64,000 bases of DNA from Cupriavidus nantongensis (lineage in GTDB: Bacteria; Pseudomonadota; Gammaproteobacteria; Burkholderiales; Burkholderiaceae): positions 3,189,642 to 3,253,641 of the forward strand of contig NZ_CP014844.1 in NCBI RefSeq assembly GCF_001598055.1, read 5' to 3'. Positions 7,356-51,457 of the stretch are shown here, in pieces. The notes under the pieces were generated by a model that saw only the letters and a program-made list of their open reading frames with translations, did no database searches and was not told where the DNA came from. The position numbers were made by a program, and so were the translations under genes. How positions within the stretch are numbered: the stretch's first letter is position 1; every line of letters starts with the position of its first letter.

Positions 7356-8096
7356 CTACTGATGCGCCGCCAGCGACAGCCCCAGCAGCTTCTGCTGCAA
7401 TCCTTCATCCTGCGCCAGCGCCGCCATCGTGCCGCTATGCACCGTGCGGCCATCGTCCATCACCGCCACCGTATCGCCCACCGACTTCGCCATATGGAAG
7501 TTCTGCTCCACCAGCAGGATCGACACCTCGGTCTGCTTCAGCTCGCGGAACACATGGATCATGTTCTGGATGATCGCCGGCGCCAGCCCCTTGGTCGGCT
7601 CGTCGACGATCAGCAGCTGGCGCGGCTCGATGATGGCGCGTGCCACCGACAGCATCTGCTTCTGCCCGCCCGACAGCACGCCGGCGCGCTGGTGCCAGAA
7701 GGTCTTCAGCGCCGGGAACATGCGGAATACCCAGTCCAGCCGGCGTTCGTCGATGGCACCGGTGCGGGCGGCCAGGCGCATGTTCTCGGCCACGGTCAGG
7801 TCGGAGAACACGCTCATGTTCTCGGGCACGTAGGCAATGCCGGCCTGCGCGATCGCCGGCGTGCTGAGGCGCGTGATGTCTGCACCATTGAAGCTGACAC
7901 TGCCGGCGCTGGCCTGCCACAGGCCCATGATGGTGCGCAGCGTGGTGGTCTTGCCGGCGCCGTTGCGCCCCAGCAGCATGGTCACGCCGCCGCGCGGCAC
8001 CGTGAAGCTGACGCCGTGCAGGATGTGGTACGGGCCGATATGGGTCTGCACGTCCCGCAGTTGCAGGATCGGCTGCGCCGTGGTCGCCTCAGCCAT
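7356..8096 (-). CDS. livF: Liv-type ABC importer ATP-binding protein LivF
   Basis: This 246-residue ATPase powers the importer. The Walker A motif is GRNGAGKT (43-50), the signature is LSGGQKQ, and the Walker B is LLIVDEPTKGLAP, with the LivF-specific VEQN loop near the end. It lacks the C-terminal extension of LivG, as expected. Its start overlaps the end of livG by eight bases, so translation is coupled. It forms a heterodimer with LivG beneath the LivH-LivM pore. Confidence 0.9.
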   Translation of the reverse strand: MAEATTAQPILQLRDVQTHIGPYHILHGVSFTVPRGGVTMLLGRNGAGKTTTLRTIMGLWQASAGSVSFNGADITRLSTPAIAQAGIAYVPENMSVFSDLTVAENMRLAARTGAIDERRLDWVFRMFPALKTFWHQRAGVLSGGQKQMLSVARAIIEPRQLLIVDEPTKGLAPAIIQNMIHVFRELKQTEVSILLVEQNFHMAKSVGDTVAVMDDGRTVHSGTMAALAQDEGLQQKLLGLSLAAHQ

Positions 8097-8943
8097 GGCT
8101 GCCCTCCTCTTCCGGCAGGCCCAGGTAGGCTTGCTGCACCACCGGCGATGCGATTACCTCGGCCGGGTCGCCATCGGCCACCAGCGTGCCGTTGTGCAGC
8201 ACGATGATGCGGTCGGCCAGCGAGCGCACCACGTCCATCTTGTGTTCGACCAGCAGCACGGTCTTGCTGCGGTCCTGGCGGATCTCGCGGATCAGGTCCA
8301 GGATCACCGGCACTTCGTCGACGCTCATGCCCGCGGTGGGCTCGTCGAACATGAACACGCGCGGCTGCAGCGCCAGCAAGATGCCGACCTCCAGCTTGCG
8401 CTGGTCGCCGTGCGGCAGCGACGCCACCGTCAGCTGGCGCTTGCCGGCCAGCGCCACGCGCTCCAGGATCGCCATGGCCTGCGCCTGCAGGTCGCGGTGG
8501 GCCGACCACATCGAGAACAAATCGATGCCGCGCTGCTGCCGCGCCTGCACCGCCAGGCGCACGTTCTCCAGCACCGACAGCTGCGGGAACAGGCTGGTCA
8601 GCTGGAACGCGCGGCCGATGCCGCGCCGGGTCTTGTGCGACACCGGCAGGCGCCTCACGTCCTCGCCGTCGAGCAGGATCTGCCCTGCAGTGGGCGGCAG
8701 CTGTCCCGAGATCAGGTTGAAATACGTGGTCTTGCCGGCGCCGTTGGGGCCGACGATGCAGGTCAGCTCGCCGGGCCGGAACGCGCACGACACCGCATTG
8801 ACGGCGACGTGGCCGCCAAAGCGGATGGTGAGCCCGCGCGTTTCCAGCAGCGGCCGTGCCGCGGACGCCGCCGCGCCCGCGGGCTGGCCCGCAGGCTGGG
8901 GCCGCACCGGGGCAGGCCTGGCGAAGGAGGCTGGCGCGTCCAT
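8089..8943 (-). CDS. livG: Liv-type ABC importer ATP-binding protein LivG
   Basis: This 284-residue ATPase has Walker A GPNGAGKT (65-72), a long LivG insert (SVLENVRLAVQAR, then the MWSAHRDL region), Walker B VFMFDEPTAGMS and the switch His in LLVEHKMDVV. The signature is degenerate: the expected LSGGxQR is LPHGDQRK, which is the normal form for LivG. The first 30 residues are an Ala/Pro-rich extension not found in E. coli LivG; an internal start is possible but the ATG overlaps the stop of the binding-protein gene by one base (ATGA), which supports it. Confidence 0.9.
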   Translation of the reverse strand: MDAPASFARPAPVRPQPAGQPAGAAASAARPLLETRGLTIRFGGHVAVNAVSCAFRPGELTCIVGPNGAGKTTYFNLISGQLPPTAGQILLDGEDVRRLPVSHKTRRGIGRAFQLTSLFPQLSVLENVRLAVQARQQRGIDLFSMWSAHRDLQAQAMAILERVALAGKRQLTVASLPHGDQRKLEVGILLALQPRVFMFDEPTAGMSVDEVPVILDLIREIRQDRSKTVLLVEHKMDVVRSLADRIIVLHNGTLVADGDPAEVIASPVVQQAYLGLPEEEGSHG

Positions 8944-41498: not shown

Positions 41499-43048
41499 AT
41501 GAAACCAGTTCTTTCCTCCCGATTTACCCGGCCGGCGCGCCGTGCCGGCACGCTCGCGCTGACCGCGATCGCGGCCGCGGCGCTGGCCGGGTGTGCGGCA
41601 CTTGGCGATTCGCACAGCACCCGGACCATGGCCGATCCGGCCGCGATGGCGACTTCGCAGACCCTGCCCGGCGAACACGGCCAGTGGCCGTCGCAGGACT
41701 GGGTCAGCCAGTTCCAGGACCCGCAACTGAACGCCCTGGTCGACGAGGCGATCCACGACAGCCCCAACCTGCAGGCCGCGTTTGCCCGCGTCGAGGCCTC
41801 GCGCGCGATGGCCGAGGCCACCCGCAGCGCGCTGTATCCGCACCTGGAGTTCGAAGGCAGCCTGGTGCGCCAGCGCTTTTCCAACAACGACCTGTTCGAA
41901 GGCACGCCGCTGGCGGGCTCGTGGCAGAACCAGTCGCGGCTGCAGGTGGGCCTGTCCTATGACTTCGATTTCTGGGGCAAGAACCGCGATGCGCTCGAAG
42001 CCGCGCTGTCCGACGACCGCGCCGCCGAGGCCGAAAGCCAGGCCGCGCGCCTGATCCTGGCAACGTCGATCTCGCGCAATTACGCCCGCCTGGCCGCGCT
42101 GTATGCGCAGCGCGACGTGGCCGAGCGCGCCATCGCCCAGCGCCGCGACCTGACCGAGCTGTCGCGCCAGCGCCTGGCCGCCGGCCTCGACACGCAGGTC
42201 GAGACCACGCAGGCACGCGGCACCGTGGCCGCATCGCAGACCACCTGCAGCGCGTCGATGAAGAAATCGCGCTGGCGCGCAACCAGCTCGCGGCGCTGCT
42301 CGGCAAGGGCCCGGACCGCGGCCTGCAGATCCAGCGCCCAGTGCTGCTGGCGCAGGCCACGCCGACGCTGCCCGACAACCTGACCATCGGCCTGCTGGGC
42401 CGCCGCCCGGACCTGGTGGCGGCGCGCTGGCGCGTCGAGGCTGCGTCGAAAGACATCAACGTCGCCAGGAAGGAATTCCTGCCCGACGTCAGCCTGAGCG
42501 CTTTTGCCGGCCTGGCCGCGCTGGATCCTTCCAACCTGCTGATGGGCATCAGCCGCACCTTCGGCATCGGTCCGACCGTGCGCCTGCCGATCTTCGAAGG
42601 CGGCAGGCTGCGCGCCAACCTGAAGGGCAAGTACGCCGGCTACGACATTGCCGTGGCCAACTACAACCAGGCGCTGGTCGATGCGCTGCGCGAGACCGCC
42701 GACACCATGACCAGCATCCGCAGCGTCGACCAGCAGATCCAGACCCAGCGCGAAGCGCTGGACCTTGCCGAGCACGCCTACGCGCTGGCGACCACGCGCT
42801 ACAAGGCGGGGCTGGGCACGCAGCTGACCGTACTCAACGCGGAAAGCAACGTGCTGCAGCAGCGCCGCCTGGCGACCGACCTGCAGGCGCGGCGGCTGGA
42901 CCTGCAGATGGGCCTGATGAAGGCGCTCGGCGGCGGCTACCAGGAGCCGGCCGAAGGCCACGAGAGCGTCGCCCATGGGCCGGCGCAGCAGCCGGGCCAC
43001 ACGCAGGGCCACACCCAGGACCACACCCAGGCGGGCGCCCGCGGCTGA
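41499..43048 (+). pseudogene. NodT-family outer-membrane efflux lipoprotein, interrupted by a one-base frameshift
   Basis: The gene encodes a TolC-like channel that links EmrAB to the outer membrane. It starts MKPVLSSRFTRP with lipobox LAGC (Cys32), and the first half of the duplicated OEP domain is in one frame (FDFWGKNRDALEAA, ISRNYARLAALYAQRD). Near 42242 the frame breaks: after VAASQT the protein continues only in the -1 frame as LQRVDEEIALARNQLAALLGKGP, then LLGRRPDLVAARW to the normal end. Inserting one G between 42242 and 42243 restores QTDLQRVDEE, the family sequence. As it stands the product is cut at 294 residues. It may be a real mutation or a sequencing error; see findings. Confidence 0.85.
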
Positions 43049-44363: not shown

Positions 44364-45992
44364 ATGGCCACCTCCCCTTCCGCCGCACCGGCCGCACCGG
44401 CTGCTGCCGGGTCGCAGCCGGGCGCCGGCCCGGCGCCGGCGCGGGCCCTGCCGCAGCAGCCGCAGCCGCTGACCGGCGGCAAGCTGGTGCTCGGCACCAT
44501 CGCGCTGTCGCTGGCGACGTTCATGAACGTGCTGGACTCGTCGATCGCCAACGTGTCGATTCCGGCGATCTCGGGCGACCTGGGCGTGGCCCCCAACCAG
44601 GGCACCTGGGTCATCACCTCGTTCGCGGTCGCCAACGCGATCTCGGTGCCGCTGACCGGCTGGCTGACCACGCGCTTCGGCGCGGTGCGGCTGTTTATCA
44701 CCTCGATCCTGCTGTTCGTGCTGGCGTCGTGGCTGTGCGGCGTCGCGCCCAACCTGGAGACGCTGCTGGCCGCGCGCGTGCTGCAGGGGGCCGTGGCGGG
44801 CCCGATGATCCCGCTGTCGCAGTCGCTGCTGCTGGCGAGCTATCCGCCAGCCAAGAGCACCATGGCGCTGGCGCTATGGGGCATGACCACGCTGGTGGCG
44901 CCGATCATGGGGCCGCTGCTGGGCGGCTGGATCTCCGACAACATGACCTGGCCGTGGATCTTCTACATCAACGTGCCGGTGGGCATCATCACCGCCTACG
45001 CCACCTGGGCCATCTACAAGGACCGCGAGACCCCCACCAAGGTGCTGCCGATCGACCGCATCGGCCTGGCGCTGCTGGTGATCTGGGTCGGCTCGATGCA
45101 GCTGATGCTGGACAAGGGCAAGGAGCTGGACTGGTTCCATTCGACCGAGATCGTGGTGCTGACGCTGGTGGCGATCGTCGGCTTCCTGTTCTTCCTGGCG
45201 TGGGAAACCTATGAGAAGCATCCCATTGTCGACATCAGCCTGTTCAAGGGCCGCAACTTCAGTTCGGGCGTGGTCGCGATCTCGGTCGCGTACGGGCTGT
45301 TCTTCGGCAACCTGGTGATCCTGCCGCTGTGGCTGCAGACCATCGTCGGCTATACCGCGACCGACGCGGGCATCGTGATGGCGCCGGTCGGCATCTTCGC
45401 GATCCTGCTGTCGCCGGTGATCGGGCGCAACCTGCCGAAGATGGATGCGCGCTGGGTCGCCACCGCGGCCTTCATCACCTTCGGCATCGTCAGCCTGATG
45501 CGCGCGGGCTTCACCACGCAGGTCGATACCTGGACCCTGATGGTGCCCACGCTGATCCAGGGCGCGGCCATGGCGATGTTCTTCATCCCGCTGACCTCGA
45601 TCATCCTGTCGGGCCAGCCGCCGGAGAAGATCCCGGCCGCCTCGGGCCTGTCGAACTTCGTGCGGATCACCTTCGGCGGCATCGGCGCATCGGTCTCTAC
45701 CACGGTCTGGGAGAACCGCTCGGCGCTGCACCATGCGCAACTGGTCGAGCAGGTCAACCCGTACAACCCGGTCTACCACGACCAGCTCAACCACCTGATG
45801 CAGATGGGCATGAGCCAGGCGCAGGCGGTCGGCGTGATCGAGCGCAATATCACCCAGCAGGCAGCCATGCTCGGCGCCAACGACATCTTCTGGATCTCGG
45901 GCGTGCTGTTCTTCGTGCTGATCGGCTTTGTCTGGCTGACGCGGCCGGCCAGGGGCGGTGGCGGCTCGGCGGACGCGATGGCGGCGCATTGA
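44364..45992 (+). CDS. emrB: EmrB-type drug efflux transporter (MFS, DHA2 family)
   Basis: This 542-residue inner-membrane pump is a 14-helix proton-drug antiporter of the DHA2 family. After an Ala/Pro/Gln-rich tail of about 35 residues, LATFMNVLDSSIANVSIPAISG is the first-helix motif with the functional Asp, GWLTTRFGAVRLF is the loop 2-3 motif, and GPLLGGWISDNMTWPWIFYINVPVG is the motif C and following region. It works with EmrA and an outer-membrane factor to expel hydrophobic toxins such as uncouplers. The gene is complete and is followed by a strong terminator. Confidence 0.93.
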   Translation: MATSPSAAPAAPAAAGSQPGAGPAPARALPQQPQPLTGGKLVLGTIALSLATFMNVLDSSIANVSIPAISGDLGVAPNQGTWVITSFAVANAISVPLTGWLTTRFGAVRLFITSILLFVLASWLCGVAPNLETLLAARVLQGAVAGPMIPLSQSLLLASYPPAKSTMALALWGMTTLVAPIMGPLLGGWISDNMTWPWIFYINVPVGIITAYATWAIYKDRETPTKVLPIDRIGLALLVIWVGSMQLMLDKGKELDWFHSTEIVVLTLVAIVGFLFFLAWETYEKHPIVDISLFKGRNFSSGVVAISVAYGLFFGNLVILPLWLQTIVGYTATDAGIVMAPVGIFAILLSPVIGRNLPKMDARWVATAAFITFGIVSLMRAGFTTQVDTWTLMVPTLIQGAAMAMFFIPLTSIILSGQPPEKIPAASGLSNFVRITFGGIGASVSTTVWENRSALHHAQLVEQVNPYNPVYHDQLNHLMQMGMSQAQAVGVIERNITQQAAMLGANDIFWISGVLFFVLIGFVWLTRPARGGGGSADAMAAH

Positions 45993-46015
45993 GCACGCGG
46001 TTCTGCAATGCATGG

Positions 46016-46044
46016 AATGGCCCCGGTTCGGGGCCATTTTTTTT
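46016..46044 (+). terminator. Intrinsic terminator of the emr operon
   Basis: AATGGCCCCG, GTT loop, CGGGGCCATT, then an eight-base T-run (46037-46044). Directly after it three copies of TTGCCCAT occur within 30 bases (46043-46072). Confidence 0.92.
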
Positions 46045-46095
46045 GCCCATTTATTGCCCATTTTTTTGCCCATATCGGGCCAGGGAAATTTCCCC

Positions 46096-46124
46096 TTGTG
46101 TTCCGCCACCCATCGCCCTATGAT
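46096..46124 (+). promoter_or_regulatory. Promoter of the iclR-pepE operon
   Basis: A -10 TATGAT (46119-46124, five of six) is preceded after 17 bases by TTGTGT (46096-46101, three of six). The start would be near 46131, just upstream of the palindromic operator, so repressor bound there would block the promoter. Confidence 0.55.
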
Positions 46125-46139
46125 TTGCCAACCGAATTA

Positions 46140-46167
46140 CGGAACCTCGGTTCCGAAAAACGGAACC
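46140..46167. promoter_or_regulatory. Palindromic operator with extra half-site for the IclR regulator
   Basis: CGGAACC-TC-GGTTCCG (46140-46155) is a perfect 7+2+7 palindrome. A third copy, CGGAACC (46161-46167), follows five bases later. It lies 30 bases upstream of the iclR GTG and overlaps the expected transcript start region. IclR proteins often bind such GGAAC-type repeats as a tetramer. Confidence 0.7.
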
Positions 46168-46195
46168 CAAGAACCAACCCAGGCGGAGAGGCGGA

Positions 46196-46984
46196 GTGAG
46201 CATTCTTGAAGGCGTGGAGGGCGTGCTGGACCTGTTCGGGCACGGCCGCCACGAGATCACGTTCAACGATGTGCTGGACGAGCTGGGGCTGGCCAAGAGC
46301 TCGGCATCGCGCCTGCTCGCCCAGATGGTGCGCTACCGGCTGCTGGAGCTGCAGCCGTCGACGCGACGCTATCGACCGGGCGCACTGGTGATCCGCGCGG
46401 CGCAGGCCGCCACGCAGGCGCACCCCTTCGACGACCAGTGCCGCGAGATCCTTGCCGCGTTGTCGGATTCGACCGGCTTCACGGCCTACCTGTCGATGCT
46501 CGACGGCACCGACACCGTGGTGCTGCAGCGCCTGAACGGCAGCAACCCGGTGCAGGTGCTGTCGCCGCCGGGCGCGCGCCGGCCGGCCTTTACCACCGCC
46601 ATGGGCCGCGTGCTGCTGTCGCGCCTGCCCGAGACCGAATTCCGCGCGCGCTACGGCGCCACCGGCACCCGCAAGCTGCCCGACGCACCGGCCGGATGTC
46701 CGGCCACCGTCGCCGAGCTGCGCGAGCGTGTGGCAATGGCTCGCGCCGAGCGCAGCGCCATCGCCGTCAACGAAGGCATGCCAGGCATCGGCGCGGTGGC
46801 CACCACGCTGACCGATCCGCTCTCGGGCGATGTGCGCGGGTTGTGCCTGTCCTTCACCGCGATGCAGGTCAGCCAGGCCCAGGCACGCGCGCTGCGCGAA
46901 ACGCTGGTGCAGGCGGTGGCGCCGCTCGGGCAGCGCCTCGGCGATCCGCTCTGGCTCCATCCCGCCGACATCCCCGCCAACTAG
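46196..46984 (+). CDS. IclR-family transcriptional regulator
   Basis: This 262-residue protein has an N-terminal winged helix-turn-helix (LDLFGHGRHEITFNDVLDELGLAKSSASRLLAQMVRY) and a C-terminal IclR effector domain from about residue 80, with RRPAFTTAMGRVLLS and SAIAVNEGMPGIGAVATTLTDPLSG as family landmarks. The start is GTG at 46196 with GGAGAGGCGGA before it. It heads an operon of pepE, DUF1177, aroM and a Bug receptor gene and sits behind a palindromic operator, so it most likely controls the operon and itself. The effector is unknown; it would be a small molecule handled by the operon. Confidence 0.9.
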   Translation: MSILEGVEGVLDLFGHGRHEITFNDVLDELGLAKSSASRLLAQMVRYRLLELQPSTRRYRPGALVIRAAQAATQAHPFDDQCREILAALSDSTGFTAYLSMLDGTDTVVLQRLNGSNPVQVLSPPGARRPAFTTAMGRVLLSRLPETEFRARYGATGTRKLPDAPAGCPATVAELRERVAMARAERSAIAVNEGMPGIGAVATTLTDPLSGDVRGLCLSFTAMQVSQAQARALRETLVQAVAPLGQRLGDPLWLHPADIPAN

Positions 46985-47006
46985 TCATCCCGGCAGTTCA
47001 AACCCA

Positions 47007-47723
47007 ATGGAACTCCTGTTACTCAGCAACTCCTCCAGCGACGCGGGCTACCTCGTCCATGCCCACGACGCAATCCGCGAACTGGCCGGCGGGCGCACCC
47101 GTGCCTGCTTCCTGCCGTTCGCCGGCGTCACGCGCGACTGGGACAGCTACGAAGCGCTGGTGCGCGACGCACTGGCCCCGGCCGGCATCGCCGCGCAATC
47201 GACGCACCGGCTCGCCGATGCCGACTGCGTGCGGGCGGTGGCAGCGGCCGAACTGATCGTCATCGGCGGCGGCAACACCTTCCGCCTGCTGCAATGCCTG
47301 CGCGAGCGCGGCCTGCTGCCCGTGATCGCGCGCCAGGTGGCCGCGGGCGCCGCCCGCTATATCGGCTGGAGCGCCGGCACCAATGTCGCCTGCCCGACCA
47401 TCCGCACCACCAACGACATGCCGGTTGCGGAACCCGGCGGCCTTGATGCGCTCGGGCTGGTGCCGTTCCAGATCAACCCGCACTACTTCAACCTGGTGGT
47501 GCCGGGCTTCCGCGGCGAAACGCGCGACCAGCGCCTGGCCGAGTTCACGGTGCTGCAGCCGCAGACGCCGGTGCTGGGTTTGCCCGAAGGCAACTGGGTG
47601 CGGGTCTCGGGCGAGCGCATGGAGATGGGCGGCGCGCATCGCGCACGCTGGTTCCTTGGCCAGCAGATCGTCGACATTGCTCCCGGCGCATTGTCCGTGC
47701 CGGCCTGCGCCGCCGCCGTCTGA
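47007..47723 (+). CDS. pepE: Dipeptidase E (alpha-aspartyl dipeptidase)
   Basis: PepE is a cytoplasmic serine peptidase (family S51) that cuts Asp-X dipeptides. The 238-residue protein aligns by eye with E. coli PepE over its full length: MELLLLSNSS at the start, GGGNTFRLL, the nucleophile Ser122 in IGWSAGTNVACPTIRTTNDMP (Asp137 nearby) and INPHYFN with His159, the triad residues. LGLPEGNWVRVSG follows. It is 22 bases downstream of iclR and 39 bases upstream of the DUF1177 gene, so it is the first enzyme of the operon. In this setting it may act on an aspartyl or related amide intermediate. Confidence 0.92.
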   Translation: MELLLLSNSSSDAGYLVHAHDAIRELAGGRTRACFLPFAGVTRDWDSYEALVRDALAPAGIAAQSTHRLADADCVRAVAAAELIVIGGGNTFRLLQCLRERGLLPVIARQVAAGAARYIGWSAGTNVACPTIRTTNDMPVAEPGGLDALGLVPFQINPHYFNLVVPGFRGETRDQRLAEFTVLQPQTPVLGLPEGNWVRVSGERMEMGGAHRARWFLGQQIVDIAPGALSVPACAAAV

Positions 47724-47762
47724 CAAATCGTTATCCAGCAACGCCAAGGAATCCCAAGCAAG

Positions 47763-48686
47763 ATGTCCATCAAGCAGGTCATTGAATCGATCGAGCTGCT
47801 GTCCGCAGCCAACGTCGACGGCGCAGCCGTCGCCACTTTGCTGCGTGCCCGCGGCATCCGCGACGTCACGGTGACGCGCGTGGAAGAGAACGGCCTCTAC
47901 ACCGACTTCCTCGCCTGCACCCTGCCCGGCCGCAACCACGATGCGCCCGCGCTGGGCGTGGTCGGCCGCCTCGGCGGCGTCGGTGCGCGCCCGGCCGTGA
48001 CCGGCCTGGTGTCGGATGCCGACGGCGCCATCGTCGCCGTCGCCACCGCGCTCAAGCTGGCCGACATGGCCGCCGGCGGCGATGTGCTGGCCGGCCCGGT
48101 GCGGATCCATACCCACATCTGCCCGCACGCCGCCACGCGGCCGCACCAGCCGGTGCCGATGATGAAATCGCCGTTCGCGATGCGCACGATGATGTCGCAC
48201 GAAGTGCATCCCGACATGGCGGCGATCCTGTCGGTCGACACCACGCGCGGCAACCGCTTCGTCAACCGCCGCGGCGTGGCGTTGACGCCGGTGGCCAAGC
48301 AAGGCTGGCTGCTGCGCCTGCCGGAGCGGATGCTGGACCTGATGGGCTGGGTCAGCGGCGAGCTGCCGATGGTGCTGCCGCTGACCACGCAGGACATCAC
48401 CCCGTATGAGAATGGCTTGTGGCATGTCAACTCGATCATGCAGCCGGCCATCGTCACCGCCGCGCCGGTGGTGGGCGTGGCGCTGACCGCGCAGACCACC
48501 GTGCCGGGATGCGCCACCGGCGTCACCAACGCCTTCGACATCGATGTGGCAACGCGCTTCTGCATCGAGGTCGCCAAGCAGTTCGGCCAGGGCCAGTGCG
48601 CCTTCTACGATGCCGGGGAATGGGCCGAGCTGCAGCGGCGCTACGGCTCGCTCGCGCACCTGCAGACCGTCGGGACCGAAGCATGA
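47763..48686 (+). CDS. DUF1177 family protein
   Basis: The 307-residue protein matches the DUF1177 family as I recall it. It has no signal peptide. Notable stretches are IRIHTHICPHA-type His/Cys residues (VRIHTHICPHAATRPHQPVP), MRTMMSHEVHPDMAAILSVDTT, FVNRRGVALTPVAKQGW and TTVPGCATGVTNAFDIDVAT. The conserved His, Cys and Asp suggest a metal-dependent or thiol-based enzyme, but no activity is established. It is translationally coupled to aroM (four-base ATGA overlap), so the two proteins probably act together. Confidence 0.82.
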   Translation: MSIKQVIESIELLSAANVDGAAVATLLRARGIRDVTVTRVEENGLYTDFLACTLPGRNHDAPALGVVGRLGGVGARPAVTGLVSDADGAIVAVATALKLADMAAGGDVLAGPVRIHTHICPHAATRPHQPVPMMKSPFAMRTMMSHEVHPDMAAILSVDTTRGNRFVNRRGVALTPVAKQGWLLRLPERMLDLMGWVSGELPMVLPLTTQDITPYENGLWHVNSIMQPAIVTAAPVVGVALTAQTTVPGCATGVTNAFDIDVATRFCIEVAKQFGQGQCAFYDAGEWAELQRRYGSLAHLQTVGTEA

Positions 48687-49390
48687 CCGCGGCCGCCCCA
48701 CGCCTGCCGCGCGTGGCCTTCGTCACCATCGGGCAGTCGCCGCGGACCGACGTGGTGCCGCAGATGATGGCCGACCTGGGCCTGCCGGCCGAGGTCGAAG
48801 AATTCGGCATCCTCGACGCGCTGGGCCCCGACGAGATCGCCGCGCTGGCGCCCGCCGCCGGCGAATACCGCTTCGCCAGCCGCCTGCGCGACGGCACCCA
48901 GGCGGTGATGGGCAAGCCGGTGGCCGAGGCCATGCTGGCGCGGCTGATGGCCTCGCTCGACGACGGCCGCTTCGACGCGCTGGTGCCGCTGTGCACCGGC
49001 ACCGCGCTGCCGCCGATGCAGACGCTGGTGCTGGAGCCGCAGCAGGTGGTCGACCACCTGACGGTGGCGCTGGCGCAGGGCTGCAGGCGGCTCGGCATCG
49101 TGCTGCCGCTGCAGGCGCAGGTGAACGACTTTCACCTGATCCAGCCGGTGCCCTGCGAACTGCGCGTCACGCATGCATCGCCTTACACCGACAGCGCGGA
49201 TACCGACACCGGCGGCTTCGCGCAGGCGGGTGCGGCGCTGCGCGGCTGCGACCTGGTGGTGATGCACTGCATGGGCTACACCGAAGCCATGCGCGCCACG
49301 GTGGCGCGCCATGCGCAGGCGCCGGTACTGCTGTCGAACCGCATGGTGGCACGGCTGCTGGGACAGGTACTGGCTGGTGCGGCGGCCTGA
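48683..49390 (+). CDS. aroM: AroM family protein
   Basis: The 235-residue protein belongs to the AroM family. The E. coli namesake lies near aroL, but its activity is unknown. VAFVTIGQSPRTDVVPQM at the start and LVPLCTGTALPP, LVVMHCMGYTEAMR and VLLSNRMVARLLG further on resemble the two-Cys layout of the Asp/Glu racemase superfamily (CTG and HCMG segments), suggesting a racemase or related isomerase. This link is inference. It overlaps the end of the DUF1177 gene by four bases. Confidence 0.85.
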   Translation: MTAAAPRLPRVAFVTIGQSPRTDVVPQMMADLGLPAEVEEFGILDALGPDEIAALAPAAGEYRFASRLRDGTQAVMGKPVAEAMLARLMASLDDGRFDALVPLCTGTALPPMQTLVLEPQQVVDHLTVALAQGCRRLGIVLPLQAQVNDFHLIQPVPCELRVTHASPYTDSADTDTGGFAQAGAALRGCDLVVMHCMGYTEAMRATVARHAQAPVLLSNRMVARLLGQVLAGAAA

Positions 49391-49471
49391 TGGCGCGCAC
49401 CGAGGGAATGCATTCCGGGTAAGGGCAAGCCCGCTGACAAATTGCCCATGACACTGCTGGAGCTGGAAGGC

Positions 49472-50464
49472 ATGGAAAAGGTAGCAAAGTGGAGGAAGCC
49501 GCTGGCAAGCGGCATGATGTGGATCGGCCTGGCCGCCGCGATGGCCCCGGCCGCGCAGGCGCAGGAATGGAAGCCGGCAAAGCCGGTGCGCCTGCTGGTG
49601 GGCTTTGCCCCGGGCGGTTCGGCCGACCTGCTGGCGCGGCTGGTGCAGGCGCCGCTGTCGGAAAGCCTGGGCGTGCCGGTGGTGGTGGAAAACGTGCCCG
49701 GCGCGGGCGGCAATATCGCCGCCGACAAGCTGGCCAAGGCGCCGGCCGACGGCTACACCATCGGCATGGGCGCCGCCGGCGCGATGGCGGTGACCCACGT
49801 GCTCAATCCCAAGGGCACGCCGTACAAGGCCGATGACTTCACCCCCATCGCCATGCTGGCGACGCAGCCCAATGTCGTGATCGTCAACCCGGCCCTGCCG
49901 GTCAAGACCATGGCCGACTTCGCCGCGTACGTCAAAAAGACGCCGCAAGTCACCTATGGCACTGCCGGCGTCGGCACCTCGAACCACCTGATCGCCGAGA
50001 CCATGCTGCACCGCCTCGGCATCGACATGGTCCACGCGCCGTACAAGGGCGCGACGCCGGTGATCACCGACCTGATGGGCGGCCATATCGCCATGACGGT
50101 CGATAACATCACCACCGCCGCGGCGCTGGCCAAGAGCGGCAAGGTCAAGGCGCTGGCGGTCACCGGCAGCAAGCGCTCGCCGTTGCTGCCCGAGGTGCCG
50201 ACGCTGGCCGAGAGCGGCCTGAAGGACTTCAACATGCCGACCTGGCAAGGCATCTTCGGGCCGAAGGACCTGCCCAAAGCGATCGTGGCCCGCTACAACC
50301 AGGCCCTGGTCAAGGCGCTGGCGAATCCGGAAGTGAAGAAAAAGATGGCGGAGTTCGGCTCGGAACCGGTCGGCGACACGCCCGAGCACTTCGCCGGCTT
50401 CCTGGTGCAGGACCGCAAGATGTGGGCCGAGGTGATCAAGACGGCCAAGGTCACCCTGGAATAA
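49472..50464 (+). CDS. Bug/TctC-type periplasmic substrate-binding protein
   Basis: This 330-residue secreted protein belongs to the Bordetella-uptake-gene (TctC-like) receptors, which are greatly expanded in Burkholderiales. The signal peptide is MEKVAKWRKPLASGMMWIGL, with cleavage near AQAQEW. PVRLLVGFAPGGSADLLAR and VVVENVPGAGGNIAADKLAKAPADGYT are the two diagnostic motifs; a third is VTYGTAGVGTSNHL. Bug proteins bind small carboxylates, amides or nicotinate-like ligands. No TctA/TctB membrane genes are adjacent, as is common for this class. An ATG eight codons upstream is an alternative start. It ends the iclR operon. Confidence 0.87.
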   Translation: MEKVAKWRKPLASGMMWIGLAAAMAPAAQAQEWKPAKPVRLLVGFAPGGSADLLARLVQAPLSESLGVPVVVENVPGAGGNIAADKLAKAPADGYTIGMGAAGAMAVTHVLNPKGTPYKADDFTPIAMLATQPNVVIVNPALPVKTMADFAAYVKKTPQVTYGTAGVGTSNHLIAETMLHRLGIDMVHAPYKGATPVITDLMGGHIAMTVDNITTAAALAKSGKVKALAVTGSKRSPLLPEVPTLAESGLKDFNMPTWQGIFGPKDLPKAIVARYNQALVKALANPEVKKKMAEFGSEPVGDTPEHFAGFLVQDRKMWAEVIKTAKVTLE

Positions 50465-50476
50465 GGGCTTGTCGGT

Positions 50477-50507
50477 CGGCGGGCAGCGGCTACGTCGCCG
50501 CCCGCCG
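50477..50507. terminator. Hairpin between the Bug receptor gene and truB
   Basis: CGGCGGGC (50477-50484) pairs with GCCCGCCG (50500-50507); the inner bases extend the stem with one wobble. It lies in the 45-base gap between the two convergent genes, has no T-run, and is a likely bidirectional stop. Confidence 0.6.
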
Positions 50508-50509
50508 CC

Positions 50510-51457
50510 TCACAGCTTGACCAGCCGCTCCGGCCGCAACGCGCCTTCGCGCATGCGTGCCACGCCCAGCAGCCGCGCGGGCTCGCCGGCATAGACCCGC
50601 GCCAGGCTGTCCTCGGCCAGCACGGTGCCGGCCGGCAGGTCGCGCTGGGCAATGCGCTGGCCCTGCAGGAAGCGCCCCGCCGCCGCCGCATCCAGCTGCA
50701 CCGGCACGCATTTCTGCAGCAGGGCATCGACCGGCGCCAGCATGGCCGGACGCTGCGCATCGTCCTGCGCTTCGATCTGGGCCAGCGTCACCGCGCCGTC
50801 GAGGGTCAGGTCGCCCACGGCAATGCGGCGCAGCCCGGTCAGGTGCGCGCCGCAACCCAGCGCTTCGCCGATATCCTCGGCCAGCGTGCGGATATAGGTG
50901 CCCTTGCTGCAGGTCACCCGCATCGTGAACGACGGGGCCTCGGGCAAGGCGCAGTCCAGCAATGCAATCGAACGGATCGTGACGCGGCGCGCCGCGCGCT
51001 CCACGGTCTGGCCGGCGCGCGCGTATTCGTACAGCGGACGGCCGTCCTTCTTCAGCGCCGAATGCATCGGCGGCACTTGCTCGATCTCGCCGACAAAGCT
51101 TGCCAGCACACGCTCCACCGCGGCGCGGTCGCACGTGACCGCGCGCACGTCGAGCAGCTCGCCTTCGGCATCGCCGGTGCTGGAGCGCGCGCCCAGCCGC
51201 ACTTCGGCGTCATAGGTCTTGTCCGCTTCGAGCAGGTCCTGCGAGAACTTGGTGGCTTCGCCGAAGCACAGCGGCAGCAGCCCGGTGGCGAGCGGATCCA
51301 GCGTGCCGGTATGGCCGGCCTTGGCCGCGCGCAACAGGCGCTTGGCGCGCACCAGCGCGTCGTTGGACGAAAGCCCCAGCGGCTTGTCGAGCAGCAGCAC
51401 ACCATGGACCTCGCGGCGCGGCAGGCGCGGCGGACGGTTGGCGTTGGAATCGGTCAT
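50510..51457 (-). CDS. truB: tRNA pseudouridine-55 synthase TruB
   Basis: TruB makes pseudouridine 55 in the T-loop of all tRNAs. The 315-residue protein has the catalytic Asp54 in AGHTGTLDPLATG, VHGVLLLDKPLGLSSN before it, and VPPMHSALKKDGRPLYEYAR with MRVTCSKGTYIRTLAEDIG further on. A PUA-like C-terminal part completes it. The start at MTDSNANRPP has no clear ribosome site. It follows rbfA and is the last gene of the rimP-nusA-infB-rbfA-truB operon in this window. Confidence 0.96.
   Translation of the reverse strand: MTDSNANRPPRLPRREVHGVLLLDKPLGLSSNDALVRAKRLLRAAKAGHTGTLDPLATGLLPLCFGEATKFSQDLLEADKTYDAEVRLGARSSTGDAEGELLDVRAVTCDRAAVERVLASFVGEIEQVPPMHSALKKDGRPLYEYARAGQTVERAARRVTIRSIALLDCALPEAPSFTMRVTCSKGTYIRTLAEDIGEALGCGAHLTGLRRIAVGDLTLDGAVTLAQIEAQDDAQRPAMLAPVDALLQKCVPVQLDAAAAGRFLQGQRIAQRDLPAGTVLAEDSLARVYAGEPARLLGVARMREGALRPERLVKL

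Follow-up and report, generated by a model that had tools for sequence, protein, structure and literature searches.

What is gained by placing an aspartyl dipeptidase, two proteins of families without an assigned activity and a periplasmic receptor under one regulator? The question is raised by a five-gene operon in a 64,000-nucleotide stretch of the Cupriavidus nantongensis genome (contig NZ_CP014844.1, positions 3,189,642 to 3,253,641; hereafter the window), where the genes lie on the + strand between 46196 and 50464 in the order IclR-PepE-DUF1177-AroM-Bug/TctC. The original prediction described it as a catabolic or salvage system in which an aspartyl or amide compound is captured by the Bug receptor, cut by PepE and then epimerised or opened by AroM and DUF1177. 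We found that DUF1177, AroM and PepE are parts of a module that is real and widespread, and we tentatively favour the view that the operon is its Burkholderiales form, serving to break down a dipeptide-like compound in cyclic or epimerised form, for example a 2,5-diketopiperazine containing Asp; this we regard as possible, not yet as probable. The operon would thus be of a peptide/amide catabolic type, and what is new is the fold predicted for DUF1177. The features of the locus are as follows.

46096-46124, + strand: candidate sigma-70 promoter, TTGTGT-17-TATGAT, read by eye
46141-46167, no strand: putative operator with half-sites GGAACC (46141-46146), GGTTCC (46149-46154) and GGAACC (46162-46167)
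46196-46984, + strand: IclR-family regulator, 262 aa, GTG start; IclR_C 65.3 bits and HTH_IclR 37.2 bits (Pfam)
47007-47723, + strand: PepE, S51 aspartyl dipeptidase, 238 aa; Pfam Peptidase_S51 188 bits
47763-48686, + strand: DUF1177, 307 aa; Pfam DUF1177 398 bits; predicted clan-MH aminopeptidase fold
48683-49390, + strand: AroM, 235 aa; PF07302 213 bits (gathering cut-off 23.8); two-Cys relative of the Asp/Glu/hydantoin racemases
49448-50464, + strand: Bug/TctC, periplasmic receptor of a tripartite tricarboxylate transporter (TTT); PF03401 227 bits

All five proteins score well over their family cut-offs in Pfam. The tight packing that had been claimed is present, with gaps of 22 (IclR-PepE), 39 (PepE-DUF1177) and 57 bases (AroM-Bug), and so is the four-base coupling of DUF1177 and AroM, the stop of one and the start of the other sharing ATGA at 48683-48686. 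The Bug gene is taken to start at 49448; a TTG is also in frame at 49442. Profile searches of the 7.1 Mb host genome (three contigs) gave a single match each for DUF1177 and AroM, and PepE was the sole S51 match. Of the two OPT matches in the genome, the one on C2 was opened as a possible second module and has no module neighbour by profile.

Conservation of the gene set was first of all evident within the window's own family, from which 200 genomes were surveyed. DUF1177 occurs in 25 of these (24 over the cut-off) and AroM in 19, three of them by weak matches only. The 31 DUF1177 places gave 29 loci after omission of the window's own and of a weak match in G148; four of the stretches are shorter than 10 kb (L055, L058, L059 and L060), weak AroM matches (20-38 bits) were not counted, and L039 is entered as lacking AroM with a frameshifted AroM present. 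Within 8 kb of DUF1177 we found PepE in 27 loci, IclR in 27, OPT in 22, AroM in 13 and Bug in 11, and AroM lies at most 4 kb from DUF1177 in 15 of the 16 family genomes with an AroM match above 60 bits. This survey of AroM-DUF1177 neighbours supports PepE, DUF1177 and AroM as one unit; DUF1177 or AroM mostly without PepE, which had been named as evidence against a common pathway, is not what the family displays. An apparent AroM-PepE fusion in L039 (a 446-aa frame) was rejected, as its AroM part becomes unrelated sequence midway; the genome search found this AroM as two separate stretches and it is therefore a frameshift. At least two sub-types can be distinguished in the family. One has AroM, together with Bug in the window's type and with OPT in others; the second has OPT, usually a class V aminotransferase, a different PepE type and a porin-like gene (a label given to cluster c4 by inspection), and no AroM. 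The arrangement IclR-OPT-class V aminotransferase-PepE-porin-like-DUF1177, mostly without AroM, is seen in L042-L045, L051, L053-L057 and L059, and both sub-types are found in four same-genus genomes (G026, G045, G145 and G172).

The module reaches far beyond this family. DUF1177 homologues number 5243 at E ≤0.001 among 7997 scored, and DUF1177 loci come from Pseudomonadota, Bacillota, Chloroflexota, Synergistota, Actinomycetota and archaea. The wider set comprises the best 80 of at least 560 confirmed DUF1177 loci in species-level genomes and six plasmid loci, 86 altogether, and leans to the window's type because the best-scoring loci were chosen; it has at least one genome in common with the family set, and some of its neighbour labels stem from profiles built on clusters of these loci and not from Pfam models. 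Twenty-six loci are of the Burkholderiales type (16 are from Achromobacter and not independent; L097 is from an unclassified betaproteobacterial metagenome-assembled genome), and within 8 kb they contain AroM (24), PepE (25), IclR (25) and Bug (24), with PepE or an M29 aminopeptidase in 25. The corresponding counts for the other 60 loci are AroM 40, DUF917 26, M29 23, PF01177 racemase 22, OPT 18, PucR 13, Dpp permease or receptor 9, HyuA 6, PepE 6 and Bug 1; PepE or M29 is present in 29 and neither in 31. The aspartyl substrate that had been proposed is therefore not implied for the family as a whole, PepE being rare outside the Burkholderiales type. The four-base overlap between DUF1177 and AroM recurs in 40 of 65 loci with AroM downstream (30/35 in the Burkholderiales sets and 10/30 elsewhere, the latter including a Thermococcus and a haloarchaeon), start sites here being picked by script so that individual values may be wrong. 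In a phylum sample of 398 genomes AroM was found in 14 and DUF1177 in 3, and all three have a DUF1177 copy adjoining AroM.

The enzymes that join DUF1177 are DUF917 (one checked example has Pfam S-Me-THD domains), HyuA/HyuB, PF01177 racemases and aminopeptidases. Two enterobacterial plasmids (Sodalis and Klebsiella) carry IclR-OPT-DUF1177-AroM-PepE-racemase in one run, and a haloarchaeal plasmid has Dpp ABC-DUF917-DUF1177-AroM-aminopeptidase and, a short distance away, a racemase. In three Paenibacillus species (P. chibensis not among them) DUF1177 occurs with AroM, M29, a racemase, PucR and Dpp permeases. On the Klebsiella pneumoniae plasmid (NZ_CP057460.1, L159 6559-11966) the whole module sits between transposase genes and the plasmid is of a conjugative type, an arrangement suggestive of horizontal transfer. 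Seven of the 60 non-Burkholderiales loci (L129 at 7785-8678, L130, L136, L141, L146, L147 and L154) share a further protein next to DUF1177 and AroM, conserved and roughly 280 aa long; the one example tested had no Pfam match.

PepE passes the NCBIfam equivalog PRK05282 (300.7 bits against a cut-off of 156) and aligns with aspartyl dipeptidase 1fy2 over 222 residues (E 7e-68). GWSAG, NPH and GLPEG are retained in alignment with both 1fy2 and 6a4r, and we take these motifs to hold the catalytic Ser, His and acidic residue. Equivalog and aligned motif regions thus support the predicted identity: the protein belongs with the S51 alpha-aspartyl dipeptidases of Salmonella and E. coli, with a near full-length match. 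The enterobacterial pepE is a stand-alone gene, whereas here it shares an operon with DUF1177 and AroM. PepE cleaves dipeptides with an N-terminal L-Asp (PMC9239234).

AroM likewise passes its NCBIfam model (PRK10481, 232 bits against 198). The two-Cys layout noted earlier holds among aligned AroMs, with C104 of LCTG in 12 of 13 and C196 of HCMG in all 13. Membership in the Asp/Glu racemase superfamily is borne out by hhalign, where 13 AroMs matched six PF01177 neighbours (93.5%, E 2.4e-7, 151 columns) with both Cys regions in register, and a structural likeness has also been reported (PMC11055893). AroM is nevertheless a family separate from the PF01177 racemases, and racemase activity is for the present a prediction from alignment. 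Its chemistry is likely to be at a carbon acid, which the enzyme would racemise, isomerise or decarboxylate.

For DUF1177, the predicted structure has the fold of the clan-MH zinc aminopeptidases, and DUF1177 is better taken for a protein of this fold than for the epimerase that had been suggested. Sequence searches gave no sign of this relationship: PDB matches up to E 10 included none to M17, M20, M28 or M42, hhalign to YpdE and to an ArgE/DapE protein returned nothing, and DUF1177 was the sole Pfam family matched at E values up to 10. D85, D87, T117, H118 and D159 are each found in 115 of 115 readable sequences from bacteria and archaea. The conserved His and Cys pointed out in the original prediction thus stand for H118 and largely for C120 (104/115), less so for C250 (85/116). 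An idea tying the C120/C250 pair to AroM was dropped, C250 being Ser, Pro or Ala in nine AroM-bearing loci; all 11 sequences without C120 also lack AroM, but these are related loci of one family. Compared with the co-catalytic zinc enzymes of clan MH (M28, M42, M20 and M17), DUF1177 shares the predicted fold and has invariant Asp residues at apparent metal-ligand positions, yet it is without detected sequence similarity and His apparently occupies the position of the Glu ligand. By strand position D85 and D159 seem to fit metal ligands, with H118 standing for the Glu; no counterpart of the clan's outer His ligands or of its catalytic Glu is apparent by position.

The receptor, by contrast with these enzymes, proved to be an accessory and not the core part that it had been taken for. 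It lies inside the operon in six of the 29 family-set loci, all from genus-mates of the window, with opposite-strand Bug genes near five others; in the wider set it is also inside the operon in Achromobacter and a few others, and outside the Burkholderiales type Bug is limited to the single locus counted above. The module thus occurs mostly without Bug, an outcome that the original prediction had listed as evidence against itself. The protein is a clear TctC member with the receptors 2dvz, the terephthalate-binding protein, BugD and Bug27 as relatives in the PDB; its ligand could not be read from the ranking, in which 2dvz, the terephthalate-binding protein and BugD are similarly close. A complete TTT system has a TctA membrane gene beside the receptor, but the five TctA matches of the genome are all outside the window and none adjoins this receptor, so the membrane partner must be encoded elsewhere. 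The transporters beside DUF1177 in other loci are OPT, Dpp ABC systems and NCS1 permeases. OPT or a Dpp permease or receptor is present in 27 of the 60 non-Burkholderiales-type loci, and the gene immediately upstream in L122 and L132, and probably in L138, encodes an NCS1 permease (Pfam: cytosine/purines, allantoin).

Conservation extends to the control region. The half-sites form the pattern GGAACC-N2-GGTTCC-N7-GGAACC between the -10-like TATGAT and the IclR start; a sigma-70 consensus scan of 45950-50560 reported no promoter at the threshold used. By script, at least two GGAAC/GTTCC half-sites within 110 bases of the IclR start were detected in 24 of the 26 Burkholderiales-type loci and in six of six separately fetched genus-mates (the two sets have at least one genome in common), counts which give occurrence and not the quality of a whole-site match, since two half-sites suffice for the script. 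The loci span four named genera, Cupriavidus, Achromobacter, Verticiella and Ramlibacter, and one of the two misses is L091, whose start does not fit the script's motif. By eye, N4 and N7 spacings recur among the printed upstream sequences, and the Achromobacter regions have a TTGACC box upstream of the half-sites. The shared operator that had been claimed is supported by these counts, and the simplest reading is that it serves as a local repressor operator for the predicted IclR regulator, which matches the PcaR/PcaU, BhcR, KdgR and IclR models of NCBIfam below cut-off only. The exact pattern GGTTCCRNNNNNYGGAAC has one site in the whole genome. A wider IclR regulon was considered and given up: up to one mismatch gives 20 forward and 19 reverse matches, while the reversed control gives 28 and 30, so that no further IclR targets can be claimed. 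Profiles detected no module gene in the stretch C1:987447-987516, where near-sites stand in tandem.

Taken together, peptide carriers, cyclic-amide enzymes and aminopeptidases suggest that the compound resembles a peptide and, at the same time, is closed into a ring or inverted in stereochemistry, and the upstream NCS1 permeases and HyuA (6/60) point to cyclic amides. The most likely substrate would be a ring-closed and/or stereo-inverted dipeptide that resists ordinary peptidases. There is precedent for such nutrients: Paenibacillus chibensis degrades cyclo(Asp-Phe) and cyclo(Asp-Asp), on which the tested peptidases fail, and the route proposed for diketopiperazines is ring opening followed by a dipeptidase, the ring-opening enzymes being called unclear in 2013 (PMC3852281). 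We infer a corresponding sequence of steps for the operon. IclR would repress at the operator until an inducer arrives. The Bug receptor would capture the compound in the periplasm and pass it to a TTT encoded elsewhere, a role that an OPT or Dpp peptide transporter may take in relatives. AroM would then invert or labilise the alpha-carbon by means of its two cysteines, DUF1177 would hydrolyse an amide bond, either as ring opening or as a first cut, and PepE would take the N-terminal Asp off the resulting Asp-X dipeptide.

A partly similar family set is already known. Clusters with a cyclodipeptide oxidase and without a cyclodipeptide synthase are reported to be enriched in AroM (PF07302), DUF917, PF01177, OPT and Dpp, many also with peptidases (PMC11055893), and the same families surround DUF1177. 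Those clusters are defined by the nitroreductase-like oxidase, and the part of the DUF1177 neighbours that was scanned yielded no such gene; the window's operon, moreover, is without OPT and DUF917. The earlier statement that no published pathway joins the families therefore holds in part. AroM, DUF917, PF01177, OPT and peptidases have been brought together (PMC11055893), in a main text that mentions DUF families twice, both times DUF917; for the DUF1177-AroM-PepE unit we found no description in the open-access PMC literature, and a pathway published outside it is possible.

Several observations weigh against a cyclic or epimerised dipeptide as the substrate of one dedicated module. No known diketopiperazine hydrolase was identified beside DUF1177, and no cyclodipeptide oxidase is among the five operon genes or the 25 families shown of 85 (71 chosen from 280 unlabelled neighbours). 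The metal site typical of clan MH appears to be only partly retained in DUF1177. The partnership is also incomplete: 16 of the 29 family-set loci have DUF1177 without a profile-detected AroM (one of them frameshifted), and a class V aminotransferase frequently joins the AroM-less loci. In L079 (Cupriavidus numazuensis) IclR-PepE-DUF1177 is kept, and neither AroM nor Bug occurs within 8 kb. Eleven of the 60 other loci have none of AroM, PepE, M29, racemase, DUF917 and OPT in 8 kb, some because of a contig end; among the 34 of these loci that extend 5 kb or more to either side, four are likewise devoid of all six families. Conversely, 11 of the 14 AroM genomes of the phylum sample are without a DUF1177 match; in the three of these that were opened, AroM has DUF917 and HyuA as neighbours, together with Dpp receptor and permeases in two genomes and with a Dpp-type ATPase in one. 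Finally, aroM of E. coli K-12 (L180 3429-4106) belongs to the run aroL-yaiA-aroM, with no module around it, and its product has Ser for the first of the two Cys; because of this replacement it may be without the activity of the operon-borne AroM.

Among other explanations, the salvage of linear peptides with damaged Asp (D-Asp, isoAsp or aspartimide, as in aged protein) fares best. Racemase types would restore L-Asp, DUF1177 would trim and PepE would clip off the Asp, in agreement with the activity of PepE on N-terminal L-Asp dipeptides (PMC9239234), the PF01177 racemase in 22 of 60 loci and the OPT/Dpp peptide transporters nearby. Many hosts are, in addition, metagenome-assembled genomes of groups with sediment or anaerobic members. 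The DUF917, HyuA/HyuB and NCS1 neighbours, however, suit cyclic amides better, and outside the Burkholderiales-type loci M29 (23/60) is commoner than PepE (6/60), so we consider this explanation rather unlikely. A hydantoin or ureide pathway, acting on amino acids or peptides in N-carbamoyl or hydantoin form, would account for just those neighbours, with AroM as hydantoin racemase, DUF1177 as N-carbamoyl or ureido amidohydrolase and a peptidase to finish. We consider it unlikely: the window's operon has neither DUF917 nor HyuA, PepE cuts aspartyl peptide bonds, and OPT and Dpp transporters elsewhere point to peptides.

The role of DUF1177 can be read in two opposite ways. It might be non-catalytic, an aminopeptidase-fold scaffold or an activator of AroM, leaving the chemistry to AroM and PepE, and this would be compatible with any of the other explanations. 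The transferrin receptor, which is non-catalytic, is among the structural matches of the fold; judged by position, both His ligands and the catalytic Glu appear to have been replaced, and the four-base overlap in 40 of 65 loci fits a partner of AroM. The five residues invariant in 115 of 115 sequences are nevertheless what an active site would display, and DUF1177 is frequently present without AroM, which makes a non-catalytic role improbable in our view. The opposite proposal is that DUF1177 is itself the long-missing hydrolase of cyclic dipeptides (diketopiperazines). It would be an amidohydrolase of clan MH whose metal site has been remodelled, and would work with the two-Cys epimerase AroM in a dedicated diketopiperazine-catabolism module of bacteria and archaea and supply Asp-X dipeptides to PepE in Burkholderiales; in this full form we think it has a small chance of being right. 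Detoxification of, or immunity to, a peptidyl antibiotic of the microcin C kind with PepE as resistance enzyme is very improbable, since S51 peptidases of another clade do confer microcin C resistance but E. coli PepE gave no protection (PMC9239234), DUF1177, AroM and PepE have no PADLOC match, and the transporters and IclR-type regulator fit nutrient use, even though the Klebsiella module lies among transposases on a conjugative plasmid.

With the shared context established for DUF1177 and AroM, two families without an assigned activity gain a testable chemistry, and named candidates can be offered for the ring-opening enzymes of diketopiperazine degradation (PMC3852281). As DUF1177 is spread over many phyla, assigning its biochemistry once would bear on thousands of genes. 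Elsewhere in the window, at 41628-43048, the gene for an outer-membrane efflux protein (by inspection) is split into two frames of 251 and 235 aa just upstream of membrane-fusion and transporter genes. In six genus-mates the protein is a single frame of 514-518 aa; the split is a frameshift, natural or from sequencing.

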